From a virus: a stretch of DNA of 28,759 nucleotides. The notes under the pieces were generated by a model, which worked only from the letters and a program-made list of their open reading frames with translations, did not search any database and was not told the origin of the DNA. Position numbers and translations under genes: made by a program. The stretch is from the IMG/VR virus record IMGVR_UViG_3300025889_000696, positions 1-28,759 of that record, one strand, 5' to 3'. Numbering within the stretch: position 1 is the stretch's first letter; each line of letters begins with the position of its first letter. Below are positions 1,965 to 23,560 of this stretch, piece by piece.

Positions 1965-2751
1965 TGGACTCAACATAGCATTTAGATGGAAACACCAAGG
2001 CGTTACAGATTTTAAATACGACTATATAAGAACAGTCGAAAGTTTAGCAAAGTCATACAATGCGGGCACGATAGTCGTGTGTGCAGACGGTGGTAGTAGC
2101 TATAGAAAAGAGATATTTCCAGAGTATAAAGCAAATCGTAAAGAAAAATATGCAGAACAAACTGCTCAAGAAGAAAAAGAGTTTGAAATGTTCATGGCAG
2201 AATTTGCAAATACACTGACAGAAATAAGAAAGAAACATCCAGTCTTTCACTTCAAAGGAGTGGAAGCAGATGATATTGCAGCATATATTAGTAAAAACTT
2301 AGATAACTTTGGATTAGATGAGTGCTGGTTAATATCATCAGATAAAGACTGGGACTTGCTAATCAATGACAGAGTGTCAAGATTTAGCACTGTTACTCGT
2401 AAAGAGACTACAGTACATAATTGGGATGAACATTATGATTTTGAAATTCCCGATTATATTACATTCAAATGTCTGACTGGCGACAAGGGGGACAATATCC
2501 CAGGTATCCCTGGAATTGGTCCAAAGCGCGCAGTACAGATAATGGAACAATATGGAGATGTTTTCGATATATACGATTCCTGTCCACTTGATGGAAAGTA
2601 TAAATACATTCAAAGTCTCAATGAAAATTCAGAACAACTTCTGACAAATGTTGAACTTATGGATTTACTTACCTACTGTGATACAGCAATCGGAGAAGAA
2701 AACAAAGAAGTTATAAATACAACTTTAAAAAGGCACTTAAATGAAAATTGA
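1903..2751 (+). CDS. 5'-3' exonuclease / flap endonuclease (FEN family)
   Basis: A 282-residue structure-specific 5' nuclease like T5 D15, T4 RNase H and the N-terminal domain of DNA polymerase I; it would remove RNA primers and 5' flaps. Visible metal-site and binding motifs are VDGLN (D21), the acid D62 in the strand VVCADGG, YKANRK at 75-80, EADD at 121-124, SSDKDWD at 145-151, and the helix-3-turn-helix DNA-binding motif GDKGDN at 193-198 followed by PGIPGIGPKRA. All acidic ligands look intact. The chosen ATG has a purine-rich site (gaggag) about 13 bases upstream but lies 62 bases inside the previous gene. A TTG at residue 17 (just before the DGLN strand) is an alternative start that would nearly remove this overlap. 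The last 11 bases overlap nrdA. Confidence 0.93.
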   Translation: MAITFSDLGNPAPRGNLLIVDGLNIAFRWKHQGVTDFKYDYIRTVESLAKSYNAGTIVVCADGGSSYRKEIFPEYKANRKEKYAEQTAQEEKEFEMFMAEFANTLTEIRKKHPVFHFKGVEADDIAAYISKNLDNFGLDECWLISSDKDWDLLINDRVSRFSTVTRKETTVHNWDEHYDFEIPDYITFKCLTGDKGDNIPGIPGIGPKRAVQIMEQYGDVFDIYDSCPLDGKYKYIQSLNENSEQLLTNVELMDLLTYCDTAIGEENKEVINTTLKRHLNEN

Positions 2752-4501
2752 TTATAGTAAAGATAAACTTTTAACAGAGTTTAGTTTAAAAACTCTACAA
2801 GATCGATATCTAATTCCTTCCGAATCTTCGCCACAAGAAGCATTTGCTCGTGCAGCAATGACTTTTGCAGATGATGACGACCATGCTCAAAGACTGTATG
2901 ATTACGCAAGTAATCTCTGGTTTATGTTCGCAACGCCTGTACTTTCAAATGGTGGAACGGAAAGAGGTATGCCTATCTCATGTTTTCTAAACTATGTTGA
3001 AGATTCAAGAGAAGGTATAACAGATCATTATACAGAAAATGCATATCTTTCATCATTTGGTGGAGGTATCGGAGGCTCATGGAGTGCAGTTCGTTCACAA
3101 GGAACAAAAACATCCAAAGGCTCCGAAAGCACAGGTGCGATACCTTTTATGAAAGTGGTAGACGCCGAGATGCTTGCATTTTCACAGGGAGTAACTCGTA
3201 GAGGCTCCTACGCAGCGTATTTACATATGTCACACCCCGAAGTAGAAGAGTTTCTTGACATGAGAAAGCCTACAGGCGGAGACGTAAATCGTAAGTGTAT
3301 AAATCTACATCATGGAGTAGTAATTCCAGACAAGTTTATGGAGATTATACACCGTGCTACAAAAGAAGATAACTTTGATGATAGTTGGGAACTGATTGAT
3401 CCTCACACTCACGAAGTTAAAAAAGTAGTGTCCGCAAGAACACTTTGGGTAAAATTATTACAGAATCGCATGGAGACTGGCGAACCTTATCTCATGTTTG
3501 AAGATGCAGTCAATGCAGAGCTTCCAGACTTTCAGAAAAGAAAAGGTCTTTATGTAAATCACAGTAATCTTTGCTCAGAAATTACTCTTGCTACAAACGA
3601 AGAAAGAACAGCAGTATGTTGTCTAAGTAGTGTAAATCTGGAATACTTTGATGAATGGAAGAAAGTTCCTGCGTTTATACCAGACTTAGTACGAATGTTA
3701 GATAATGTATTACAGTATTTCATTAATAATGCTCCTAATAGTATGGAGAAAGCCAAGTATAGTGCTATGAGGGAGAGAAGTATTGGACTTGGTGCAATGG
3801 GATTTCACGCTTATTTACAGAAAAATAATATTGCTTTTGAAAGTATGTGGGCAAGTAGTGCAAACTACCAAATGTTTAAACATATAAAAGAACAAGCACT
3901 ACAAGAAACTCGTAGACTTGCGGTTGAAAGAGGTGCATGTCCAGATGATGATACTTGTGAAGTTAGAAATGCTCACTTGTTAGCGATTGCTCCTAATGCA
4001 AGCTCTAGTATTATTTGTGGTAATACATCACCAAGTATAGAGCCGTTTAGAGCCAACGCTTTTACACAGAAAACAAAAAGCGGATCATTTTTACAGAAAA
4101 ATAAGTATTTGGAAGCCTTACTCGAAAGTAAGGGAGCAAATACAGAAATAGTATGGAAAGATATCATTACAAACAAAGGTAGTGTACAACATCTTGATAT
4201 ACTTACTGATGAAGAAAAAGAAATATTTAAGACTGCTGTAGAAATTAATCAGTCTTGGGTAGTAGAACACGCTGCACAAAGACAGGAGTTTATCTGTCAG
4301 TCACAGAGTGTCAATTTATTCTTTCCACCAGATGTAAACAAATTAGATTTACATAACATTCATATGTTAGCGTGGGCAAAGAATTTAAAAACTCTCTACT
4401 ATCTAAGAAGTGAAGCAATATCAAGAGCAGATAATGTATCGAATAAAGTAAAAAGGGAGATAATCTTTGAACAAGAAGGTTGTCTCAGTTGTGAGGGATA
4501 A
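2741..4501 (+). CDS. nrdA: Class I ribonucleotide reductase, large (alpha) subunit
   Basis: Reduces ribonucleoside diphosphates to deoxynucleotides with the beta subunit encoded next. Active-site residues are present: C81 in PISCF and C293 in AVCCLSS (equivalents of E. coli C225 and C462), the N276-C278-E280 triad in NLCSEI (the thiyl-radical Cys), the radical-transfer pair Y553-Y554 in TLYYLRS, and the C-terminal reducing pair C581-x2-C584. At 586 residues it is much shorter than E. coli NrdA (761). Only 80 residues precede C81, so there is no room for the usual N-terminal ATP-cone, and dATP feedback inhibition of the standard kind is not expected (inference). The start overlaps the exonuclease gene by 11 bases. 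The stop and the nrdB start form TAATG, so translation is probably coupled. No thioredoxin or glutaredoxin gene is in the window. Confidence 0.97.
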   Translation: MKIDYSKDKLLTEFSLKTLQDRYLIPSESSPQEAFARAAMTFADDDDHAQRLYDYASNLWFMFATPVLSNGGTERGMPISCFLNYVEDSREGITDHYTENAYLSSFGGGIGGSWSAVRSQGTKTSKGSESTGAIPFMKVVDAEMLAFSQGVTRRGSYAAYLHMSHPEVEEFLDMRKPTGGDVNRKCINLHHGVVIPDKFMEIIHRATKEDNFDDSWELIDPHTHEVKKVVSARTLWVKLLQNRMETGEPYLMFEDAVNAELPDFQKRKGLYVNHSNLCSEITLATNEERTAVCCLSSVNLEYFDEWKKVPAFIPDLVRMLDNVLQYFINNAPNSMEKAKYSAMRERSIGLGAMGFHAYLQKNNIAFESMWASSANYQMFKHIKEQALQETRRLAVERGACPDDDTCEVRNAHLLAIAPNASSSIICGNTSPSIEPFRANAFTQKTKSGSFLQKNKYLEALLESKGANTEIVWKDIITNKGSVQHLDILTDEEKEIFKTAVEINQSWVVEHAAQRQEFICQSQSVNLFFPPDVNKLDLHNIHMLAWAKNLKTLYYLRSEAISRADNVSNKVKREIIFEQEGCLSCEG

Positions 4502-5710: not shown

Positions 5711-5736
5711 AAAAGGGGCTTTAAGCCCCTTTTTTA
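5711..5736. terminator. Bidirectional rho-independent terminator between convergent operons
   Basis: A compact GC hairpin, ggggct-tta-agcccc, is flanked by an A-run on the left and a T-run on the right, so each strand reads a GC stem followed by U-rich RNA. It begins three bases after the stop of the last plus-strand gene and overlaps the stop of the last minus-strand gene (5734-5736). This is the expected position for one element ending both converging transcripts. The stem is 6-7 bp with a very small loop. Confidence 0.9.
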
Positions 5737-6942: not shown

Positions 6943-9900
6943 TTATTCTCCTTTTTCTATGTCGTTAATTCGACTTGTTAATTTTTCTATCTGTTTTTGT
7001 TGTTCTTTTATTGCTTCAACAAGCAAAGCAACAGTGTTCTGATATTTCATTACATGTAAATCTTCTATACCTTTTGATTCTTCTAATTCATCTGTTGTTC
7101 TGCCATCTATAATTTCTACTAATTCTGGTATAATTTTCTTTACGTCTTGTGCAACAAATCCAATTTCTTTTTTACCTGTCGCTTTTCTAGTATAACTTAC
7201 TCCTTCTAGCTTGGTCACAGTAAGTAAAGCATTTTCAATTGGCTTAATATCTTCTTTCAACCTAATATCAGAATATGCTGTAACATTACCAGTTGCGGTA
7301 CAGTTACCAGAGCTATCAACTTTAAATGTCCAGCTACGACCGTTATTTAAAAATCCAATTTCATTTGAGCTATTTACATAAACATACCCATGTACTGTTC
7401 CTGTTGGCGCCATTGCTATAGCAGCATTGGAAGCTGTACCAGACCTCATATAAAAATCTTGAGCATCTTTTACGTATAAATGCCAACCAGTGGCGGACCA
7501 ATAATGCCCATTATTATTGTAATGATTTCTTACCCAATCATCGTGATATAAAGCATTTACATAATAATCAGTTCCTAAACTACCTGACTGTAATGTTGCG
7601 CCTTGTATTCCATCTACAGTATCCGCATCTAGTCCAGAACCTGAACCGTCGTTACCATCAGTCCATATTTTTTGCCAATCATAGCCAGACCCTCCATTTG
7701 CCCACCAACCTCTTAGGTAGGTGAATGAAGGATTACCGGCAGACATAACCATTTGCATTCCGTGGTGATATGTAGTACTTGCCGAATAATGTAAGGCTTG
7801 GAACCCATTAAAGTGAGTTCCGCTAGGGGGCCTACCCGCAGGACTACTCCAAACATCTATAAAACCAGATCCTCTATTAAAGAGGTCATTCATACTATAA
7901 GAGCCATGAGCATTCACACCGGTATGGTAGTTTGCATCGGTAGTGTAATCCCTTCTATCGTAAGTGTCCTTTGATAAACCCATCAGCACTTTAAAGTCTG
8001 ATTTTCCAAGGTATCTTAGATAGGCATCATGAGAACAATAAATTCTTGCTACATCATTACCAATTCCGGAGTCTCCAGAAGTTGTATTAATCCAGCCTAA
8101 CTGAAGATACCCGTTGGCGTCTCTAATTGGGATTGTATTTGCAGCATTTCTTGTAGTACTTGCGTGATATCCGTCAAGTAAGTCAGCATCAAGTCCTGAA
8201 CCTGAGCCATCGCACAAGCTACTCCAAATTCGACCCCAAGAGGATAAACTACCATTGTTGTTGTATCTGTGGTATAAATCATGGCTATAAAAGCTACCTG
8301 CAATTTGATGTCCATGATTACCACCATAGTGCGCCATATTTAATAATGAGTACCAAGTACCTGTTGGAGTTCCATTATTATAGACATCATAAAAACCAGA
8401 GTCAGAATTAGCAGTACTACCAAAAGCAATATTAGTTGTGCCTTTTCCGCTTGTTCCTCCTACTAACCCATTAGACATCATCTGATTTCTAAAGTGTGCG
8501 GGTGTAGATTTTCTTAGATAATTGTCACCAGTACTCTGAGTCCAGATTTGTCCAATGGTAGGGTTTTCTGAATTACCCGAAGAAGCATTAAAATAAGAAC
8601 CAAGAATATAGTTTCCATAAATGTGACCACTGCCCTCTCTTTTAACAATAGTATTAGCGGCAGCAGATTCCGAAGGAATATAACCGCGCAGAGTATCAGC
8701 ATCAAGTCCTGAACCTGAACCGTCATTACTGGCATCCCAAACTTTTCTCCAAGACTGCCAAGTGCCATTGTTTTTACCTCTTAAAGCAATTTGCCCCGAT
8801 CTATAGTCTCCTGCAATTTGATGCTGCCAACTAGAATTATATCGTTGGGAAAATAAAGCACCATCAGTCGCATTACCTGAAAAGTTTGTTACACCACTCG
8901 TATAGTAGCTGATTCCATTCGAATCAATTGTGTCGGCGTTTGTTGCACTATTGCTTCCGGTATTAACAAACCCTATCCCATCGATATTACTGGCGGAGCT
9001 TACTGACTGAGAGCCAATGTTCGCTGTGGTAATAGCTGTTGACGCAGGCTGGTAGTATGATCCGTGCTGGCCATCTAATAAATCTGCATCTAATCCTGAA
9101 CCTGCGCCATCATTACCAGCATTCCAAACTTTATCTCCTAAAACATATAGTTGCTTATTAAAATAAAAGTTACTCCTATCAGTATAGATATGTGCCCAAC
9201 TTGTATTCATTGGTCCAATCTGAATATTTCCATGAGGTGTATACATGGTATGTTGATTAGCCGCTGTGGTTAAATTCCCCGCATTAGTAAGGGTTCCAGT
9301 AAAAGTAGGGCTTGCTGTTGGGGCATAATAAGAACCGTGCTGTCCATCAAGTAAATCTGCATCTAAACCTGAACCAGCACCATCGTTGCCTACGTGCCAT
9401 AATTTTTTCCAAGTTTTCCAATTAGAGCTATCGGTTCTTACCCTCATATAAAAGTCATCACCATTGTAATGTGCACCTATTTGAAAAACTGAAGCACTAC
9501 CGCCAGTATTAATAGTTAACATGGTGGCACTTGCACCGGTATAAATAAGGGTTCTGGTACCAAATTCAGCAACTTTTGTTTCTGTATGAGCATCATCAAA
9601 TGGATTTGAGTTACTTCCACCTGCTACTGATGTGAGATCAAGATTACCTCTATGTTTAAATATACTACTATCCGCAGGCTGATAATATGAACCCTGCTGT
9701 CCATCAAGTGTGTCAGCATCTAAACCAGAACCAGAGCCATCATTTGAAGCACCCCACAGGGTTCCTTGACCGCTAGTCCATAAGCTTCCAGACGTATTAA
9801 GAGTTGCCCTACGAGTTCCACCAGTAGTGAACTGTAGATTTCCCCCAGAGTTTGTGCTTAGATCATCAGGAGATTCATAAATTCTCCAATCACTTCCGCC

Positions 9901-12639
9901 TATCCAGCGAAGACCCTCGTTTGGTCCAGGATCGTTAAAAGACAAATCATTCAAATTGGTAATTGCATAATTGTTCATGTTTATGCTAGCGATTGCACTT
10001 GTTCTAGCAAAAGAAGATGCTTCTATTCCATCAAGTAAGTCAGCATCTAGTCCTGAAGCTGACCCATCTACTGTTTTGATCTTTGTAAGTACATCGGCTG
10101 CTGTATAAGAAGAAGATGCTAGTTTTGCATCTAAAGCAGCTTGCAATCCATCTACATTTGAAATGATATGATTATGTGAATCATCTGCAATTACTATTGC
10201 ACCATAAGTACCTGACACATCTCCACCAAAGGTTGTTGATGTTGTAAGAGCAGTTGAAGCAGGTGCGTAATATGAACCGTGTTGTCCATCAAGTAAATCT
10301 GCATCAAGGCCTGAACCTGAGCCGTCAGTACTAGAATCCCAAACTGTTCTCCAACCTTGAGCATTATTATTTGAAATTAATTGTGTTCGAATTTTACCAG
10401 CACCTGTACCGGTCATTTGCATTGCAATGGTATTACTATAATAAGAATATGGATTACCATGCCCCATTCTTATGCTATTATACCAATCACTTGTTGGTGC
10501 TATTTTTGTATCTGTAACCCCTGAGGCTTGTGCATATTCTAAAACACTACTAGGAGAACCTGTTGTTGCAAAAGCAGAACCTGTGACTGCATCTGACTGT
10601 AATGAACTTAAAGGCGAAGGTAATCTACCTGCTGGTATTGTTCCTGAATCTATATTACTTGCATTTCTGTAAAATGAACCTTCCACTCCATCAAGTAAGT
10701 CAGCATCTAATCCTGAGCCAGAGCCGTCTACAGTCTTAATCTTGGTAAGTACATCAGAAGCTGTATAAGAGCTTGAAGCAAGTTTTGCATCTAACTGTGT
10801 TTGAATATTACTTGTTACACCATCTACGTAATTCAGTTCGGCTTTTGTCGCTGTAATTCCGAGATTGGTAATTGCATTATCCTGCTGTGTTCCAGTTAAT
10901 CCTTGTGCTGCGGTATCAACTCGTAAGCGATATCCTAATGCTGTTGAAGTTGTTGTTGCAAAGTTTGCATCATCACCTAAAGCTGCTGCTAATTCGTTGA
11001 GTGTATTCAATGCCGCTGGAGCTGAATCTACGACTCCTGCGACTTGAGCATCTACATAAGCTTTAATTGATTGTTGTGTTGGTACTCTTGTTGCACTGTT
11101 GGTTGCAAATGAATCTTCGTCAATAAATGTAATTCCTGAGATTGTTCCATCACTGAATGAAGCCCCCTCAATTGCACCCGTACTTGTTATAGCACCACTA
11201 CTGATAGTTCCAACAGATGTTAGATTATTACTGTTAAAATCAACTCCACCAGTTCCACCGATTGTTATTCTAGCGGTTTCATTAGTTCCAAGTGTTAAAG
11301 ACCTTGAACCTGAATTGTGATAGATTGCCATTGTGGACGAACCAAGAGCAATTGCACCATTATAAGCATTACCATCAATGCGAACTTGACCACTAGCAGA
11401 AGCATCCATATTTATATCTTGATCGGCTGCTGAAGTGGTTATAGCTGCGGCACTAATAGTTCCAACAGTAATATTTGGAGTACCTGATAATCCTATTGCA
11501 GTAATACCTAAAGCATTAATTTCTGATTGTGTTTGATCTGCAGTAGCACCACTTTCTATTCCATCTAACTTTGTTCCGTCAGCAGCAATGTCACGGCCGT
11601 CTACAGTTCCTGAGACTACTATATTTCCTGAAAAAGTAGCAGAAGCAGCAGATTGGTCTAAAAGTAGAACTGGGCTTGCTGCACTTGTATTATTGCCTAA
11701 ATACACATCTCCGTTATTTCTAAATATTAAAGGGTAATATCCATTAGTAATATCTTTAAAGTTTAAATAACCATCTGAGCCAATTTGCAAATTCCACTCG
11801 TAGTTTGTTTTAGTTGTTCCACCTGTTCTTGCAATAGTCAGGCTTGGGAAATAATCTCCAACTGACCTAACTTCTATATCATTATTACCTGCTTGGGTGG
11901 ATAAAATAGCACCACTAGTAACAGTTCCAGTAAAAGTAGGGCTTTCTTCATAGTTTGCTGTAATGACACCTGTGCTTGAGTTATAACTTAGCGCGTTGCC
12001 ACTTACAGAGATTGCACTTCTTGCATCACTATCACCATATTGAGCAGAACCTGCAATTGTTAAAGTATTATTTGCATCATCATATGTTAAGGTTATACCT
12101 GTACCTGCAGTTAACAGAGAATTGACTCTATCATCAACTCTTTCGTTTGTAAAATAAAGATTTGTTGTACCTTCACCTAAATCATCGGTCTTATTTGCCG
12201 CAAGTGAAATTTTATCTGCAGTATCACTACTACCACTCGAATCAAAAGTTTTAATTTTGCCGCTATCTATCTTAATCTTTTTACGGTTTGTTCCGTCATC
12301 AAATTCTAATTCTGAAATTACCAATTTTTTGAAATTGCTTCCAGACTTAAATTCTATATCACCCGCGTCATTTTTCTTTAATTCTGTGCCGCCTAAATTA
12401 ATTGTATTGCCATCGAGATAAATATCACGAAAACGATAAGTAGAAGAACCAAGATCATAAGTTATGTTTGTGTCAGGTATAAGATGCCCTGATACTGTAG
12501 TAGCACCAATAGTAAGTGTTTTTGAACTTAAATCAAGTGTAGTATGTAAATGAGCAGGCGTGACTGAGCTTACTGCTATTTCAGTTGCAGTGATTGCGTT
12601 TGCAGCTATATATCCTGCTGGTATTTGTGTTTTTGCCAT
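6943..12639 (-). CDS. Giant tail fibre (1898 aa) with LDADLLDG modules and C-terminal S74 chaperone domain
   Basis: The N-terminus (IPAGYIAANAITATEIA) is a short ladder repeat seen in phage fibres and shared with the 1048-residue fibre below. It is followed by YDLGSSTYRFRDIYLDG and GEGTTNLYFTNERV segments, a helical LNTLNELAAALGDD stretch, and nine copies of a DGxGSGLDADLLDG module between about residues 635 and 1680. The C-terminus is an intramolecular chaperone of the endosialidase type (peptidase S74): SDIRLKEDI from S1790, EIGFVAQDV, and a terminal coiled coil (LLVEAIKEQQKQIEKL). In this family a trimer folds and then self-cleaves before the Ser, releasing the 109-residue end; cleavage here is expected, not shown. 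Its ribosome site is gaggaatt. No enzymatic depolymerase motif is apparent. The role is host receptor binding. Confidence 0.9.
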   Translation of the reverse strand: MAKTQIPAGYIAANAITATEIAVSSVTPAHLHTTLDLSSKTLTIGATTVSGHLIPDTNITYDLGSSTYRFRDIYLDGNTINLGGTELKKNDAGDIEFKSGSNFKKLVISELEFDDGTNRKKIKIDSGKIKTFDSSGSSDTADKISLAANKTDDLGEGTTNLYFTNERVDDRVNSLLTAGTGITLTYDDANNTLTIAGSAQYGDSDARSAISVSGNALSYNSSTGVITANYEESPTFTGTVTSGAILSTQAGNNDIEVRSVGDYFPSLTIARTGGTTKTNYEWNLQIGSDGYLNFKDITNGYYPLIFRNNGDVYLGNNTSAASPVLLLDQSAASATFSGNIVVSGTVDGRDIAADGTKLDGIESGATADQTQSEINALGITAIGLSGTPNITVGTISAAAITTSAADQDINMDASASGQVRIDGNAYNGAIALGSSTMAIYHNSGSRSLTLGTNETARITIGGTGGVDFNSNNLTSVGTISSGAITSTGAIEGASFSDGTISGITFIDEDSFATNSATRVPTQQSIKAYVDAQVAGVVDSAPAALNTLNELAAALGDDANFATTTSTALGYRLRVDTAAQGLTGTQQDNAITNLGITATKAELNYVDGVTSNIQTQLDAKLASSSYTASDVLTKIKTVDGSGSGLDADLLDGVEGSFYRNASNIDSGTIPAGRLPSPLSSLQSDAVTGSAFATTGSPSSVLEYAQASGVTDTKIAPTSDWYNSIRMGHGNPYSYYSNTIAMQMTGTGAGKIRTQLISNNNAQGWRTVWDSSTDGSGSGLDADLLDGQHGSYYAPASTALTTSTTFGGDVSGTYGAIVIADDSHNHIISNVDGLQAALDAKLASSSYTAADVLTKIKTVDGSASGLDADLLDGIEASSFARTSAIASINMNNYAITNLNDLSFNDPGPNEGLRWIGGSDWRIYESPDDLSTNSGGNLQFTTGGTRRATLNTSGSLWTSGQGTLWGASNDGSGSGLDADTLDGQQGSYYQPADSSIFKHRGNLDLTSVAGGSNSNPFDDAHTETKVAEFGTRTLIYTGASATMLTINTGGSASVFQIGAHYNGDDFYMRVRTDSSNWKTWKKLWHVGNDGAGSGLDADLLDGQHGSYYAPTASPTFTGTLTNAGNLTTAANQHTMYTPHGNIQIGPMNTSWAHIYTDRSNFYFNKQLYVLGDKVWNAGNDGAGSGLDADLLDGQHGSYYQPASTAITTANIGSQSVSSASNIDGIGFVNTGSNSATNADTIDSNGISYYTSGVTNFSGNATDGALFSQRYNSSWQHQIAGDYRSGQIALRGKNNGTWQSWRKVWDASNDGSGSGLDADTLRGYIPSESAAANTIVKREGSGHIYGNYILGSYFNASSGNSENPTIGQIWTQSTGDNYLRKSTPAHFRNQMMSNGLVGGTSGKGTTNIAFGSTANSDSGFYDVYNNGTPTGTWYSLLNMAHYGGNHGHQIAGSFYSHDLYHRYNNNGSLSSWGRIWSSLCDGSGSGLDADLLDGYHASTTRNAANTIPIRDANGYLQLGWINTTSGDSGIGNDVARIYCSHDAYLRYLGKSDFKVLMGLSKDTYDRRDYTTDANYHTGVNAHGSYSMNDLFNRGSGFIDVWSSPAGRPPSGTHFNGFQALHYSASTTYHHGMQMVMSAGNPSFTYLRGWWANGGSGYDWQKIWTDGNDGSGSGLDADTVDGIQGATLQSGSLGTDYYVNALYHDDWVRNHYNNNGHYWSATGWHLYVKDAQDFYMRSGTASNAAIAMAPTGTVHGYVYVNSSNEIGFLNNGRSWTFKVDSSGNCTATGNVTAYSDIRLKEDIKPIENALLTVTKLEGVSYTRKATGKKEIGFVAQDVKKIIPELVEIIDGRTTDELEESKGIEDLHVMKYQNTVALLVEAIKEQQKQIEKLTSRINDIEKGE
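7605..10735 (-). repeat. Nine dispersed LDADLLDG fibre modules
   Basis: Nine copies of a coding motif with consensus D-G-(S/A)-(G/A)-S-G-L-D-A-D-(L/T)-(L/V)-(D/R)-G, usually continuing Q-H-G-S-Y-Y. They lie near 7630, 8190, 8710, 9090, 9360, 9720, 10045, 10305 and 10705, with irregular spacing of about 250 to 560 bases. The sequence between copies is unrelated or partly related: some blocks carry a TWYSLLNMAHYGG- or NDWVRNHYNNN-like segment, and the two distal copies follow SSSYTAxDVLTKIKTVDG. They mark repeated structural units of a long trimeric fibre rather than DNA-level mobile repeats. Confidence 0.85.
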
Positions 12640-16422: not shown

Positions 16423-19400
16423 TTATTCTCCTATTTTAGATTTTAGTTCTTCTACTTGTGCTGATAATTCTTGCACAGCTTTAATTAAAGGAAATACAAA
16501 CATAGCTTCTGATATTTGTTGTTTACCATCAGGAAGTACATCCCATCCTTTAAAATCTTCTACACCAAACTTATCTAATGCTGCTTTAACATCTTGAGCA
16601 ATCATACCATGTTGAGTATTTTCATCGCTTGGTTTTGTTTTATTAGCATCAAAACTTTCCCATTCTTCAGGGTATTCGCTTGGTGCTTTAAATTTATAAG
16701 TTACTGGTTTTAATTCGTTAATAAAATCTAAACCAAGACTTGAAGGTGCTATATCTTTTTTAGACCTTTCATCTGATGAATGTGTCCAAGTAGCGTTAGA
16801 ATTATAGTCGTTGTAAATATGTGAGGTTCCGTTACCTATATGAACTCTAGTATCGGCTGTTCCCCCAAGATCAGTTCCAATGACAATTCTTCCTTGTGCA
16901 CCACCGCTACCAGCTCCTGTGTTATAACCCAATAAAGTATTATAACTGCCTGTAGTTGGACTTGAGAAACCTGCATTTGTTCCTAGACAAACATTTTGTG
17001 CTCCACTGGTTATCGCATAACCTGAAAGATAACCTAGTGCAGTGTTGTTATTACCAGTTGTAAGAGCATAAAGCGTTCTTCTTCCCACGCCTACACAGCC
17101 TTGTGATGTAGTTGCATCAGTCATAGACTCGTAACCTACCGCAGTATTTAATTGTCCTGTGGTCATTGCATCTAAAGCATAAGCACCGACTGAGGTGTTA
17201 TGAATGCCTGTAGTGTTTAAGTTAAGTGCATTAAGTCCAACTGCTGTATTACCACTGCCTGTTGTAGTATTTTCTAAAGTCTGATGTCCAAGTGCTGTAT
17301 TATCACCACCTGATGTGCAACTTGCTAAAGCAGCATATCCAACAGCTACTGTATTGTTAGTGGTTAAAGCACCTGCTGCGCTGTAACCTATTGCAACATT
17401 AGATGAGCCTGTTGTAACTGCATCTAATGAAGATGTACCAATCGCAATATTAGCTGACCCTGTGGTTATATCTGAACCTGCTGCATATCCGACACAAGTA
17501 TTATTAAGACCTGTAGTAATGCTTTGTCCTGCACTTCTACCCAATCCTGTATTTTGAGTGCCTGTAGTATTTGCATAAAGTGCGTGCCAACCTACTGCGG
17601 TGTTATTGGCTGCGGTGGTGTTAGAATATAATGCTCCTGTACCAACAGCAACATGCCTACTGTCATTTCCTGTAGCTGTTGTATTGCTATATCCTGCTTG
17701 ATAGCCTATAAATGTGCTATCAAATCCAAGCGTATTGCTATACCCAGCTTGATAACCTAGAGCTACATTTCTTCCGCCTGTAGTGTTAAATCTTAAAGCC
17801 TGTAAACCTATACCTGTATTACTAGTACCACTTGTATTAAATTGCAAACACTCAGAACCTACTCCAGTATTGGCATTAGCAGTAGTAGCACTTAAAGCTC
17901 TATAACCAACAGCAGTACAATCATTACTAGATACTATAGCATCAAGAGATTCTGTACCAACCGCCACATTATTTGTACCTGTAGTGTTTGCTCCAAGTGC
18001 AGCATAACCAACTGCTGTATTGTTATCTGCTGTAGTGTTTGCTGTTAAAGCAAAAGTTCCAATAGCAGTATTTTGATTACCTGATGTATTTGCTTCTAAT
18101 GCTTCACTTCCAAAAATAGCATTATTATAACCAGTTGTTGTAAACCTTCCTGCGAACATTCCAACAGCAGTATTTTTTGCACCTGTTGAAGCATTTAAAG
18201 CTGCATAACCGATAGCAGTTAAATCGTTTGATGTTGTATTAGCAGATAAAGCACTTTCACCTATTGCTATATTTGCACTTCCTGTAGTATTAGCATCTAA
18301 AGCGTAAGCACCTACTGCAACATTAGAAGAACCTGTAGTGTTTGCGTTAAGTGAATTAAAACCGACTCCAACATTGTTTCCTCCAGTTGAACTTCCTGAA
18401 ACGCCTACACCTGCCGAAGCACCTACATAAGTATTAAAAGAAGCTGCTGCATATCTTCCTGCTTGTAACCCTAAAGCAGTATTATAGTTTTGTGTTGTTA
18501 CGACTTGTAGTGCATCAACACCTAAAACAGTATTGTAACTACCAGTCGTTACAGCATTAGCAGAGTTCCAACCAACACTTATATTAGCAATACCTGTAGT
18601 GTTTGCTCCAAGTGCTGCATAACCTATTGCTGTATGGTATGAACCTGTTGTATTAGCATCTAAAGCTAAAGAACCTACTGCAACATTATTAGTACCTGTA
18701 GTGTTTGCAACAAGTGAATTGTTACCAATTCCTATATTATTAGAGCCTGTAGTGTTAGAATATCCTGCGGCATAACCAAAATATGAGTTATTATCTCCCG
18801 TCATTGCACCAACACCAACAGCTTGTGAGCCTACTATAGTTGAATAACTAGATGTTGCATTAACCCCTGCATTAGTACCTATGGCAACTGTATCGCCATC
18901 ACTTACACTGCTTTTTAATGCTTGATAACCCACTGCTACAAGTGAAAGACCTGTAGTATTAAGTTGCAAAGCTGTAAAGCCAACCGCAGTATTTCCAGTT
19001 ATACCTGTAATATTTTGATTTTGTAATGCACTTGTACCAATAGCAACTGACCTTTCACCTGTGATATCGGTTGTTAATGCGTTATATCCTAGTGCGACAT
19101 TATTATTTCCTGTAGTTATTGCATCTGCTGCAAAATTACCTACTGCGACATTTTGAGTACCTGTAGTGTTTGCTACTAAAGAATTTACACCAACTGCTGT
19201 ATTGTTAGATGCTGTAGTGTTTGCAAACAAAGCTCCTGAACCAACTGCTGTGTTTGCTGCTCCAGTTGTATTTGCTCCTAAAGCTACTTTACCAATAGCG
19301 GTGTTGTTATTTGCTGTAGTATTTGCATCTAGTGCCTCTGCTCCTAGAGCGGTGTTGTTTGTTCCTGTAGTGTTTGCTGTGAGTGCTGCATAACCTACTG

Positions 19401-21633
19401 CTGTGTTGTTGGATGCTGTAGTGTTTGCGTCAAGTGCTATGTGTCCGATAGCCACATTGTTACTACCAGTTAAATTAGCAACCATACTATTATATCCAAG
19501 AACTGTATTATAAGAACCTGTGGTATTTACAAACAAAGTTCCTCTACCAATAGAGGTGTTGGCTATTCCTTCTGTATTAGCATTTAAGGCTTTAGAGCCT
19601 ATTGCAGTATTATAATTACCACTTGTTAAACTATCAAGAGCTGTATCACCTAAAGCAACATTCTCAGTACCAGTTGGATAATTACCATCAAGTTTGATAG
19701 TTCCGCCATCTATTGAGACATTACCTGCTACTGTAAGACCATCGGTTACTGCTGTACCTGTTACATCTATACCTGTTGAGGTTGTGGCTAGTTTTATTGA
19801 ATTAGCGTATAGAAGCTTTACAGACCCTCCATCTACTGCTGTGATGTAGTCGTTATTATTTGCAGAATTGCGTAAGTAAAAATTTGTTGCGTTGATTACA
19901 AGCTGACCAGTTCCATTTTCGGTGATATAACTATTAGAACCATCATGATAAATCTGTAAATCTGAACCAGCACCAAAGATAGCCTTAACAGAATCACCAA
20001 AAGTAAGTGCATCTGCTGAAGCATCCCAAACCAATTGAGCTGTAGTGCCTGTGTCTTCGTAGAAGGAGATGTCTCCGTTGTTAGCAATTCGGAGTCTTTC
20101 TGTTAATGTTGTATCGGTAGATGCGTTTTTAGTCCCAAAAAGAATATGCCCCCTAGAACCACTAGCATTGTTTTCTAAAATATATCCACTAATTGCTGCC
20201 CATGTTTCCGTTGTGCCAGAACCTGATTGCCATGTTATTTCGCCACCATTTCCAATGGTACTTGAATTAGCAAATAATTCTAAACCACCTTTTTGACCAA
20301 GCGTTGTTCCAGTAGTGCTAGAAAGATTAACTATCGCATCACCATCAACAGTTAAACCATCCATTGTGGCTGTACCTGTTACATCTATACCTGTTGAGGT
20401 TGTGGCTAGTTTTTTAGCGTTGTCATAGTAAAGATTTACAGCTCCATCTGCTAAAACATCTATTCCACTTTCGCCTGTCTTTGGTCTTATTCTTATACTA
20501 CCATTTGTATCTTGAATATAAAGGTCGCCTGTAGTATTTGTTAAAAAGCCATGAGTCCCACTATGATAAAGTTCTAAATCGCTATCTGCGCCAAAAATAG
20601 CCTTAACAGAATCGCCAAAACTTAAATCTGCTGTAAGCGCGGCAATCTCGCTGCTTCCAACTGCATTCTTTGCTATTTTCGCACTTGTAATTGAATTATC
20701 TGCTACATCTGAAGCTACTATAACTCCACTTGCTATTTTTGCACTTGTAATTGCATTATCCGCTATATCGCTAGTATTTACTGCGCCTGATGCGATAGAT
20801 GCACTTGTTACAGAGTTTGCATTTAAAACAGAGAAGTTTGTAGAACTAAATGCGATAACTTCAATATTGTTTGTTCCAGTTGGAGGTGCGCTAGAGAAAG
20901 TAAGAGTTGTGCCACTTACAGAATATTCTGACTTCTGCTGATATACACCATCAATATAAACTTGAGTATTGTTTTCACTTTGAGGATTTTCGCTCAATGT
21001 AAATGCTACTGTAGAATTATCTCCACTAAAAGTATCAAGAACAACAGAGTTACCACTATAAATTGATCCAACTACATAAACAGTAACAGTTGTACCGTTT
21101 GCAGGAGCTGTGTCAAAAGATAGGGTTGTTCCACTGAATGTGTAAGAATCTTGATTTTGAAATACACCGTCTATAAAAGCTATGATGTAGCTTTCTCCTG
21201 CAGGCGTGGTGCTTAAAGTAAAATCGGTTGTGCTACCATTTCCTGTTGCAGTGTTTAAATAGAATGATTGAGCTGTTGCTGTTTTTGAAGAAAAACTTAA
21301 ATTTCCTGAACCATCAGTAGTTAAAACTTGCCCAGTAGTTCCATCACTTACATTAAGTTCTGAAATTCCTACAGAGTTTGATGCAATTTCACTTGCTCCA
21401 ATCGCATTTGCTGCAACTTCAGAAGAAGTCACAGCATTCGCTGCTATTTTGGCACTTGTTACGGCATTATTTTCTAGTGTGCCGATTGTAACTATTGATT
21501 CGCTTCCATCGTTTTTCTTGATAAAAAGTTTACCGTCATAGGTATTAATCGCTATTTCACCAAGAGCGAGTGCAGAAGTCGATGGTACTGCTCCCTGAGT
21601 CGCAGACCTTTTTAATTTAATAGTTTGTGCCAT
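16423..21633 (-). CDS. Giant tail fibre (1736 aa) with YadA-head-type repeat array and S74 chaperone domain
   Basis: The N-terminus MAQTIKLKRSATQ...ALGEIAI...KLFI matches the start of the 626-residue fibre and resembles the N-terminal docking domain of phage tropism proteins. Next come two FSG/TxVxxTLSxxP beta repeats, a DNAITSAKIA ladder, and two GDSVKAIFGAxSDL modules. From about residue 654 to 1573 there is an array of about 54 units of 17 residues, T-G-x-x-N-x-A-V/I-G-x-x-A-L-x-A-N-T, as in YadA-type trimeric adhesin heads (left-handed beta-roll). The end is an S74 intramolecular chaperone: HSSDERSKKDI with Ser1620, HGMIAQDV, then a coiled coil (LSAQVEELKSKI). Trimer folding followed by self-cleavage is expected from the family. 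The role is host attachment. Confidence 0.9.
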   Translation of the reverse strand: MAQTIKLKRSATQGAVPSTSALALGEIAINTYDGKLFIKKNDGSESIVTIGTLENNAVTSAKIAANAVTSSEVAANAIGASEIASNSVGISELNVSDGTTGQVLTTDGSGNLSFSSKTATAQSFYLNTATGNGSTTDFTLSTTPAGESYIIAFIDGVFQNQDSYTFSGTTLSFDTAPANGTTVTVYVVGSIYSGNSVVLDTFSGDNSTVAFTLSENPQSENNTQVYIDGVYQQKSEYSVSGTTLTFSSAPPTGTNNIEVIAFSSTNFSVLNANSVTSASIASGAVNTSDIADNAITSAKIASGVIVASDVADNSITSAKIAKNAVGSSEIAALTADLSFGDSVKAIFGADSDLELYHSGTHGFLTNTTGDLYIQDTNGSIRIRPKTGESGIDVLADGAVNLYYDNAKKLATTSTGIDVTGTATMDGLTVDGDAIVNLSSTTGTTLGQKGGLELFANSSTIGNGGEITWQSGSGTTETWAAISGYILENNASGSRGHILFGTKNASTDTTLTERLRIANNGDISFYEDTGTTAQLVWDASADALTFGDSVKAIFGAGSDLQIYHDGSNSYITENGTGQLVINATNFYLRNSANNNDYITAVDGGSVKLLYANSIKLATTSTGIDVTGTAVTDGLTVAGNVSIDGGTIKLDGNYPTGTENVALGDTALDSLTSGNYNTAIGSKALNANTEGIANTSIGRGTLFVNTTGSYNTVLGYNSMVANLTGSNNVAIGHIALDANTTASNNTAVGYAALTANTTGTNNTALGAEALDANTTANNNTAIGKVALGANTTGAANTAVGSGALFANTTASNNTAVGVNSLVANTTGTQNVAVGNFAADAITTGNNNVALGYNALTTDITGERSVAIGTSALQNQNITGITGNTAVGFTALQLNTTGLSLVAVGYQALKSSVSDGDTVAIGTNAGVNATSSYSTIVGSQAVGVGAMTGDNNSYFGYAAGYSNTTGSNNIGIGNNSLVANTTGTNNVAVGSLALDANTTGSYHTAIGYAALGANTTGIANISVGWNSANAVTTGSYNTVLGVDALQVVTTQNYNTALGLQAGRYAAASFNTYVGASAGVGVSGSSTGGNNVGVGFNSLNANTTGSSNVAVGAYALDANTTGSANIAIGESALSANTTSNDLTAIGYAALNASTGAKNTAVGMFAGRFTTTGYNNAIFGSEALEANTSGNQNTAIGTFALTANTTADNNTAVGYAALGANTTGTNNVAVGTESLDAIVSSNDCTAVGYRALSATTANANTGVGSECLQFNTSGTSNTGIGLQALRFNTTGGRNVALGYQAGYSNTLGFDSTFIGYQAGYSNTTATGNDSRHVAVGTGALYSNTTAANNTAVGWHALYANTTGTQNTGLGRSAGQSITTGLNNTCVGYAAGSDITTGSANIAIGTSSLDAVTTGSSNVAIGYSAAGALTTNNTVAVGYAALASCTSGGDNTALGHQTLENTTTGSGNTAVGLNALNLNTTGIHNTSVGAYALDAMTTGQLNTAVGYESMTDATTSQGCVGVGRRTLYALTTGNNNTALGYLSGYAITSGAQNVCLGTNAGFSSPTTGSYNTLLGYNTGAGSGGAQGRIVIGTDLGGTADTRVHIGNGTSHIYNDYNSNATWTHSSDERSKKDIAPSSLGLDFINELKPVTYKFKAPSEYPEEWESFDANKTKPSDENTQHGMIAQDVKAALDKFGVEDFKGWDVLPDGKQQISEAMFVFPLIKAVQELSAQVEELKSKIGE
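16915..19674 (-). repeat. About 54 tandem 51-bp units encoding YadA-head-type 17-residue repeats
   Basis: The array codes for units with N-N-T-A-V-G-Y-x-A-L as core and A-N-T-T-G-T as linker. Period is almost always 17 residues (51 bp). A few units are 16 residues, some are 18-19, and one (TATGNDSRHVAVG) is 21. Counting by eye gives about 54 units. DNA copies are diverged, with the word cctgtagtgtttgc and close variants recurring. Ends are approximate. Several Gly-rich or Cys-containing units (SNDCTAVG, TSQGCVGVG, NVCLGTNAG) break the pattern. Confidence 0.9.
19751..19795 (-). repeat. 45-bp exact direct repeat, copy 1
   Basis: A 45-base stretch identical to 20369-20413 in the same gene. It encodes the end of a fibre module (KLATTSTGIDVTGTA). 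The surrounding protein is also duplicated (GDSVKAIFGA...LATTSTGIDVTGTA...DGLTV) but more diverged, so this block is either a recent conversion tract or under strong constraint. Confidence 0.85.
20369..20413 (-). repeat. 45-bp exact direct repeat, copy 2
   Basis: The second copy of the 45-base repeat at 19751-19795, 618 bases away, in frame with it. 618 is a multiple of three, so recombination between copies would delete one shaft module without a frameshift. Confidence 0.85.
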
Positions 21634-21679: not shown

Positions 21680-23560
21680 TTAAGAGAATGTTCCCCCGTC
21701 TAGCACATCACCCCAAGAAGCGTTTCCACTTGAATCCATAGAAAGAATATATGTGCTAGTTGTAGCAGTTGCTGTAGGTCTTACTAATCTTGTGTAACCA
21801 CCATTTGTTGCAGCTCCGATAAGTAAGTCACCTATTGCTGTTGAACTGATACCTTTAATTCTTAATGCATCACTGTTAACTTCTAATGTTATATTATCAT
21901 CGTTAACATTAAGTGTATTTCCTGATTTGCTAAGAGCGTCTCCAGCGATAATTTGTCCTGCACCTGAGAATTGTACAAAAGTTAAAGCAGTTGTATCAAG
22001 TGTAATTGGATTGTTTGTTGTAAGAACAAAACCATTATCACCGTTTACAGTACCCTCTTCAACAAATACAAAGAGTCCAGAAGTAACTTCTGGACTCTTT
22101 GTATTTGTTGAAGAGGTTGCAGGGCTTGAGCCAGCAACATAGATACCATTTTCACTTCCAGTTGACTGATCTTTAACAAGAACTCTATCACCGTCTGCAA
22201 GAGTTACGCCATCAATTGTGTCGCCTACATTCAAGTCTGTAGCGATTGTAATATTGGCAGTAGTTGCTACTCTTACTGAGTCTTTAATATCAAGTGCTTG
22301 TTTTACTGCATCAACGTATGCTTTTGTAGCTGCGTCTTGTGCTTGTGTTGGGTCAGTAACATTTGAAATTCTTGAGTTATTTACGTCTACAACACCAGAG
22401 CCATTTGGATTTAAAGAAATATTACCATTTGTATCTGTGCTAGAAATTTCATTACCATTTAGATTTAAATTATCTACTGCTAAAGAAGTTAACCCTGCTA
22501 AATCAGTTGTAGTTGCTCCCGGATTTAAAGAAGAAGAACCAAGTGTAATTGCATTTACTGCAACAGCACCACTTGTTACAGTAAAGTCTGTAGCATCAAA
22601 TGAAGCCACACCCTTGTTGCTTGAAGTTGCATCTTCTCCCGCGATTGTTACAGTTGTACCAGAAGCGGTAGTATTTATACCCTCTCCACCAGTAAAGGTA
22701 AATCCTTCACCGATTGTTGCAGCAGCTGTTGAAGCATCTTCTGCAGTAATTGTAATATCATTTGCTGCAACTGCTCCACTTGTTACTGTGAAATGTGTAG
22801 AGTTAAAAGATGCAATACCTTTATTTGAAGAGGTAGCATCTTCTCCAGTGATTGTTACTGTATTATCTGTTACAGCAGTATCAATACCTTCTCCGCCTGT
22901 AAATGTGAAAGTATCGCTAATTAAAGAAACAGTATCTGTTCCAGTATCACCTGCTATACCAAGAGTTGTTGAAATTGTTGTAAAAGAGACAACTCCTGAA
23001 CCGTTTGTTATAAGAGCTTGTCCACTTGTGCCATCAGCTGTAGGAAGTGTATATCCTGCTGTACCATCAAGTCCTACTGTAATTTGTTTGTCAAATACTA
23101 CTTTTTCTGTGCCATTTGTAGTATTAAAACTTAAGTATTTATTTGCACCTTCTGTAATTACTAAAGAAGTTGATGAATTATCTATAATTCCAAATTCTGT
23201 TGCTTGTGAAGATAGATCAATAGTACCACCAGTTATATCTAAATCCAAATTTGCAGCAGCAATAATATCTACATCGCCTGATGCAGAAGTAATTGAGTTT
23301 GCTCCGATTGTTAAGTTTGCTGTTTTAAGTTGGTCAATTTTGCTATTAGAGTCAACTACTATTGCAGAACTTGCTGTAAGTGTACCTGCAGTGTGGTCAA
23401 GCATATTGACATACAGTTCACCACCGATTACATCATTATTTGACCCATCACCGATAAAAAGTTTAGATGAATTAAATGAATAAGCTAATTCTCCTACACT
23501 TAACGCACTCGAGGGGGTAGCGGCGGTGGTACTTCTTTTAATTTTAATTGTTTGTGCCAT
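21680..23560 (-). CDS. Tail fibre / tail structural protein (626 aa) with docking-type N-terminus
   Basis: The N-terminus MAQTIKIKRS...ALSVGELAY...KLFIGDGS parallels the 1736-residue fibre and is probably the particle-docking domain. The middle holds two copies of a segment TFTGGEGIxT...GEDATSSNKG...FTVTSGAVA (22747-22912 and about 22547-22706). A well-known phage fibre segment follows: DPTQAQDAATKAYVDAV, DGDRVLVKDQSTGSENGIYV, then GLFVFVEEGTVNGDNGFVLT. It ends WGDVLDGGTFS; the LDGGxF end is shared with the next two upstream genes. Residues about 482-502 are coded by a perfect 63-base inverted repeat. The ribosome site is ttaggaaaa. A 421-codon open frame on the opposite strand (22218-23483) is a by-product of the composition. 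Structural role is inferred from domains and context. Confidence 0.85.
   Translation of the reverse strand: MAQTIKIKRSTTAATPSSALSVGELAYSFNSSKLFIGDGSNNDVIGGELYVNMLDHTAGTLTASSAIVVDSNSKIDQLKTANLTIGANSITSASGDVDIIAAANLDLDITGGTIDLSSQATEFGIIDNSSTSLVITEGANKYLSFNTTNGTEKVVFDKQITVGLDGTAGYTLPTADGTSGQALITNGSGVVSFTTISTTLGIAGDTGTDTVSLISDTFTFTGGEGIDTAVTDNTVTITGEDATSSNKGIASFNSTHFTVTSGAVAANDITITAEDASTAAATIGEGFTFTGGEGINTTASGTTVTIAGEDATSSNKGVASFDATDFTVTSGAVAVNAITLGSSSLNPGATTTDLAGLTSLAVDNLNLNGNEISSTDTNGNISLNPNGSGVVDVNNSRISNVTDPTQAQDAATKAYVDAVKQALDIKDSVRVATTANITIATDLNVGDTIDGVTLADGDRVLVKDQSTGSENGIYVAGSSPATSSTNTKSPEVTSGLFVFVEEGTVNGDNGFVLTTNNPITLDTTALTFVQFSGAGQIIAGDALSKSGNTLNVNDDNITLEVNSDALRIKGISSTAIGDLLIGAATNGGYTRLVRPTATATTSTYILSMDSSGNASWGDVLDGGTFS
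22054..22116. repeat. Perfect 31-bp inverted repeat with 1-base centre inside a fibre gene
   Basis: The left arm 22054-22084 and right arm 22086-22116 are exact reverse complements around a single base, 22085. Codon register is also symmetric, so both strands read S-S-T-N-T-K-S-P-E-V then T-S-G-L-F-V-F-V-E-E. In the message it would form a 31-bp hairpin with almost no loop; in DNA it could extrude as a cruciform. It is not followed by a T-run and lies mid-gene, so it is not a normal terminator. Confidence 0.95.

Follow-up and report, generated by a model that had tools for sequence, protein, structure and literature searches.

A perfect palindrome in a virion-protein gene

How does a phage gene come to contain a long, perfect palindrome and still encode an intact protein? 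The question is raised by a fibre gene of a marine phage in the window analysed here, which is an entire IMG/VR record of 28,759 bases. The gene, its conserved domain and the palindrome are located as follows.

21680..23560, minus strand: open reading frame of an intact tail-fibre / decoration-like virion protein of 626 aa, which carries the palindrome
21881..22390, minus strand: conserved domain, residues 391-560, the basis of our comparisons (80 loci)
22054..22116, both strands: perfect palindrome with 31-bp arms around a 1-nt centre at 22085, the third base of Val492

The preliminary description had reported two exact arms around a single base, and this was confirmed: 22054-22084 and 22086-22116 are reverse complements at 31/31 nt, separated by a 1-nt spacer. 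Self-complementary positions number 62/63 rather than 63/63 because the lone central base cannot pair with itself. Translation also bore out the claim that both strands encode the same peptide, with SSTNTKSPEVTSGLFVFVEE read from either strand and the valine of the centre encoded by GTT or GTA. This sharing follows from the palindrome being centred on a third codon position and does not constitute separate evidence. Further inversion of the palindrome would merely exchange GTT and GTA, a silent change. By chance, the expected number of 31-nt arms in the window is 28,759 × 4^-31, or ~6 × 10^-15. The runner-up perfect hairpin in the 28,759-nt window has 11-bp arms, and the longest perfect arms in ~970 kb of fetched related phage loci (some overlapping) are 14 bp. 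With 31/31 complementary arms, the inverted repeat is far above chance, as a template-switch product requires.

The 626-aa reading frame matched PHROG tail fibre and head-decoration families, with Pfam Mtd_N slightly below the cutoff. Among cultured phages, its nearest relatives are tail fibres from Methylophilales phage Melnitz and Pelagibacter phage Mosig; one of its domains is common to decoration proteins, for example that of cyanophage PSS2. The conserved domain (391-560) is related by profile to PDB entries 9nx3 (capsid decoration protein) and 9efk (orf22), and a PDB fold search with the window's own domain returned nothing usable (best E 0.47). There were no near-matches in the phage DNA collection. 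The orthologue of the fibre in locus L106 is intact at 630 aa.

The plus strand of the window carries nucleotide-metabolism genes and the minus strand a block of fibre genes. The RNR large subunit (2741-4501, 586 aa) is closest to those of Pelagibacter phages, at 65-68% identity, and aligns to the phage family profile only from position 189 onwards. It is without the N-terminal part, which usually includes the ATP-cone, and the same short form occurs in the Pelagibacter phages, aligned over its full length at that identity. Between the converging plus-strand nucleotide-metabolism and minus-strand fibre genes lies an 11-bp-arm hairpin with T/A tails (5711-5733, AAAAGGGGCTTTAAGCCCCTTTT), which is probably a bidirectional terminator. 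A fibre protein of 1898 aa, encoded at 6943-12639, repeats a DGSGSGLDADLLDG-like motif many times and has a peptidase S74 chaperone domain at its C terminus. The two adjacent fibre genes at 16423-21633 and 21680-23560 have near-identical starts, MAQTIK[LI]KRS, and the L106 pair shows the same similarity; judged from sequence, the common start points to a putative shared N-terminal attachment module that is Mtd_N-like.

Conservation of the two arms among homologues

The preliminary description proposed that the first half of the palindromic segment had been overwritten by the complement of the second, with the frame kept. We therefore set out the two arms as they are read in the gene.

22054..22084, minus strand: proposed source arm, downstream in the gene, from T493 to the first base of G503, TSGLFVFVEE(G), matching the family
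22086..22116, minus strand: proposed overwritten arm, upstream in the gene, from T482 to V492, TSSTNTKSPEV, replacing the R-x-x-D of the family and of low identity to homologues

The closest relatives, L003 and L005, share 84% protein identity with the window over the conserved domain. The protein alignment to L003, L005, L006 and L007 is gapless across the palindrome and both flanks, and the flanks continue as they do in these relatives, as expected of a switch followed by a switch back. Since the alignment is gapless and the length of the gene unchanged, this was a replacement and not an insertion. The two arms differ in their resemblance to the closest relatives: the downstream arm is identical at 23/31 nt to both L003 and L005, and the upstream arm at 14/31 and 11/31, respectively, without a gap. 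Mean identity to homologues was ~34% for the upstream arm compared with ~64% for the downstream arm and ~64% outside, and the downstream arm was the nearer of the two in 82/83 homologues. The same upstream stretch was 63% identical in 998 control homologue pairs at similar distance, so it is not intrinsically so variable. The window deviated more than any other sequence, with a left-minus-outside difference of -0.32 against -0.14 for the runner-up. Under family column frequencies, log10 P was -24.6 for the upstream arm, -8.6 for the downstream arm and -8.1 for the median window of the same length.

The residues lost are among the most constant in the family. The position of T482 is R in 149/149 non-identical homologous segments, and that of T485 is D in 139/149, the remaining ten forming one clade with RATPED. 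The R-x-x-D pattern is also present in cyanophage PSS2 (SRSEDAD) and in the distant solved decoration protein 9nx3 (SRVTDM). It had been supposed that the second half of the segment is conserved and that the first half usually varies. The former holds, the second half being ordinary for the family; the latter does not, given the constancy of R and D. As these positions are normally R and D, and both are T in the window, the overwriting is all the clearer. Across the block T482-P490, 7/9 residues differ from L003. Copying would have been contradicted by a homologue encoding these first-half residues with codons that are not complementary. The R position is T in the window but in none of the 149 segments, all of which therefore lack the first-half peptide. 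Thus, the greater closeness of the downstream arm in 82/83 homologues, the 34% against 64% identity and the loss of R and D identify the downstream arm as ancestral and the upstream arm as replaced by its complement, and the overwriting claim was supported in every comparative test that we ran.

We also scanned IMG/VR for DNA encoding TNTKSPEV, seeking other genes with the odd peptide. The scan matched L088, a homologue with 58% identity, but the match lay antisense to its fibre gene: read backwards there, the usual TSGLFVFVEE codons spell TNTK-PEV. The first half of the L088 fibre itself is normal (RATDADSNAEV). At the level of sequence comparison, L088 shows independently that the odd half corresponds to the conserved half read in antisense. 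Three degenerate IMG/VR patterns and one genome-contig pattern, all codon-specific, returned no family member as a further converted allele, and the nearest records may lie outside these collections. Two pattern matches, L185 and L186, were ruled out as converted alleles as they are not fibre homologues.

Probable template switching and alternative origins

We consider that the palindrome is very probably the footprint of one recent replication template switch, of the kind termed quasipalindrome correction. On the alignments described above, the upstream arm is shown to have been replaced, base for base, by the reverse complement of the downstream arm, with length and frame unchanged. The perfect match of the arms suggests that the event was recent. 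Only one sequence carries the product and its closest relatives are ~75-78% identical in DNA; the immediate ancestor is therefore unseen, and stepwise change is formally possible.

The event would have begun at a short palindrome located as follows.

22078..22092, minus strand: presumed seed CAGAAGTTACTTCTG, a palindrome with 7-bp arms, the identical 15 nt occurring at the same aligned place in the unconverted L014 and L088

In the proposed sequence of steps, an ancestor would have had a short palindromic seed at its E-V-T-S codons (GAAGTNACTTC, 5-7 bp arms), at which the nascent strand would have paired with itself, as a fold-back, or with the other strand. It would then have copied ~24 further bases of the downstream arm past the seed before returning to the proper template in register. 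In the fold-back version, the nascent strand would be the plus strand of the window, on which the source arm is made first. The product would be the 31-bp-arm hairpin together with the block of new residues T482-P490, in a fibre that would be either tolerated or newly arisen. It would be a single mutation, probably neutral or slightly harmful. AlphaFold2 models of the domain gave a mean pLDDT of 67 for the block with the new residues compared with 96 in L003, although a poor fit to the alignment may account for this predicted drop no less than disorder.

Some unconverted relatives have the seed GAAGTNACTTC at the exact centre, with arms of 5-7 bp. Stems of 5 bp or more at that centre were present in 11/118 alignable segments compared with 0.15% of all positions, because E-V-T-S codons tend to be GAAGTNACTTC. 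A short inverted repeat at the centre thus exists in relatives, the direct ancestor not being among them. The possibility of an imperfect hairpin in relatives had been raised; it stands for L014, which has one at the same place (z = -2.5), and for the segments with a seed of at least 5 bp, but almost all homologues are without a stem. When the upstream arms of L014 and L018 were aligned with gaps, they shared TTCAAC and AAAT with the window at a 3-nt offset. Some complementarity may therefore predate the event, and the ancestor was perhaps partly palindromic, the state from which classic quasipalindrome correction begins. Apart from the central seed, the site was not supported as a hairpin hot spot of the family, stems of at least 7 bp being not clearly denser there than in the rest of the domain. 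L013 (2501-2989) has its own shorter hairpin near the same place, with arms of ~9-10 bp around GCAGCTTC-TTCA-GAAGCTGC (z = -2.8), which may be due to chance or to a second, smaller event.

Other origins were weighed against replication template switching. The palindrome could be an artefact, arising when a polymerase switched template in amplification or sequencing or when the assembly folded back on itself, in which case the gene of the phage itself would be ordinary. Amplification is known to yield fold-back chimeras (PMC9484634), and the palindrome was in no other record searched, although near-identical records may lie outside the collections. A simple fold-back, however, leads into a reverse-complement flank, whereas here the upstream flank, which is unrelated, takes up again at the correct codon, with the length unaltered and the frame open. 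The artefact must also have copied 24 bases past the seed, gone back to the correct base and ended up as the consensus, which a rare chimeric molecule normally would not do, and typical reads exceed the 63 nt of the palindrome. We regard this origin as unlikely. Still less probable is a mobile palindromic element inserted in the coding sequence, comparable to the Rickettsia palindromic elements. The palindrome does sit within a reading frame, but no length has been added relative to L003, L005, L006 and L007, so that there is no extra sequence compared with an empty site, and one arm is plainly the conserved sequence of the gene itself. Nor were multiple copies found when the exact 31-mer and blastn were used to search the window, IMG/VR and phage records, the blastn hits having E of at least 0.5. 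An insertion of this kind therefore has almost nothing to commend it.

Convergent point mutations with selection for the peptide, involving no copying, could draw on the natural occurrence of the seed in E-V-T-S codons (11/118 segments). They would nevertheless have to produce an upstream arm with P ~10^-24.6 under family column frequencies through changes that take away conserved residues, and we consider this extremely improbable. The palindrome might instead have been built or kept as a regulator, whether as a terminator, a pausing or RNase III site, or a protein-binding cruciform. The predicted fold is certainly very stable, at -58.5 kcal/mol for a 103-nt RNA piece containing the palindrome (z = -11.7), with a 30-bp stem, and L014 has the weaker hairpin noted above. 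Yet the stem is absent from almost all homologues, and two nearly invariant residues were lost in its formation. No intrinsic terminator, that is a stem followed by a U-tract, was found or called at the palindrome, with no U-tract or T-run on either flanking strand, and the window had no Rfam match. A selected role is thus very unlikely, and under template switching the hairpin would arise without one.

Comparison with known template switches

The cases in phage T4 rIIB, yeast CYC1 and Escherichia coli thyA arose in the laboratory, affect few bases and are often frameshifts; unlike these, the window comes from a natural phage in which ~24 bases beyond the seed were replaced at constant length. 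According to PMC7202029, the template-switch mechanism was first described (Ripley 1982) in rIIB of the tailed phage T4 and in CYC1, and is also known from thyA. As in the quasipalindrome correction presented there, a short seed or imperfect repeat would have become a longer perfect one, with one arm templating the other. Protein changes attributed to template switching in Saccharomyces cerevisiae include UTP5, where 4-bp arms became 11 bp with adjacent amino-acid changes (PMC8604942). The yeast genes resemble the window in the homogenisation of arms within coding DNA. Their longest reported homogenised arm is 16 bp, with at most five amino-acid changes (PMC8604942), compared with 31 bp here, where the window and L003 differ at seven residues out of nine.

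A perfect stem from one event has likewise been described for template switching that creates RNA hairpins (PMC8794818), although those stems are functional and lie in RNA genes, whereas ours lies in a protein gene and is apparently incidental. Nematomorpha mitochondria contain numerous coding palindromes of up to 284 bp, in which both arms are conserved sequence (PMC6649704). These are also perfect inverted repeats within protein genes for which template switching has been proposed, but the window presents a single case, with one arm stripped of its conserved residues.

The mechanism is already known, and the palindrome is an unusually long, clean natural example of it within a protein-coding gene, with arms about twice as long as the longest in the survey of yeast coding sequences (PMC8604942). 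Relatives reveal in which direction the copying went, where it was seeded and what it cost, namely two nearly invariant residues. A single replication slip in a phage can put antisense-derived codons in place of part of a virion-protein gene and leave the frame intact, and substitution models would misread such a change as rapid evolution or positive selection. It is conceivable, though we give the idea little weight, that template switching lets the receptor-side proteins of marine phages diversify in jumps, with the conserved E-V-T-S codons as a built-in seed. If so, the neighbouring segment would occasionally be overwritten with antisense-coded sequence, gaining several new residues at once and in frame.
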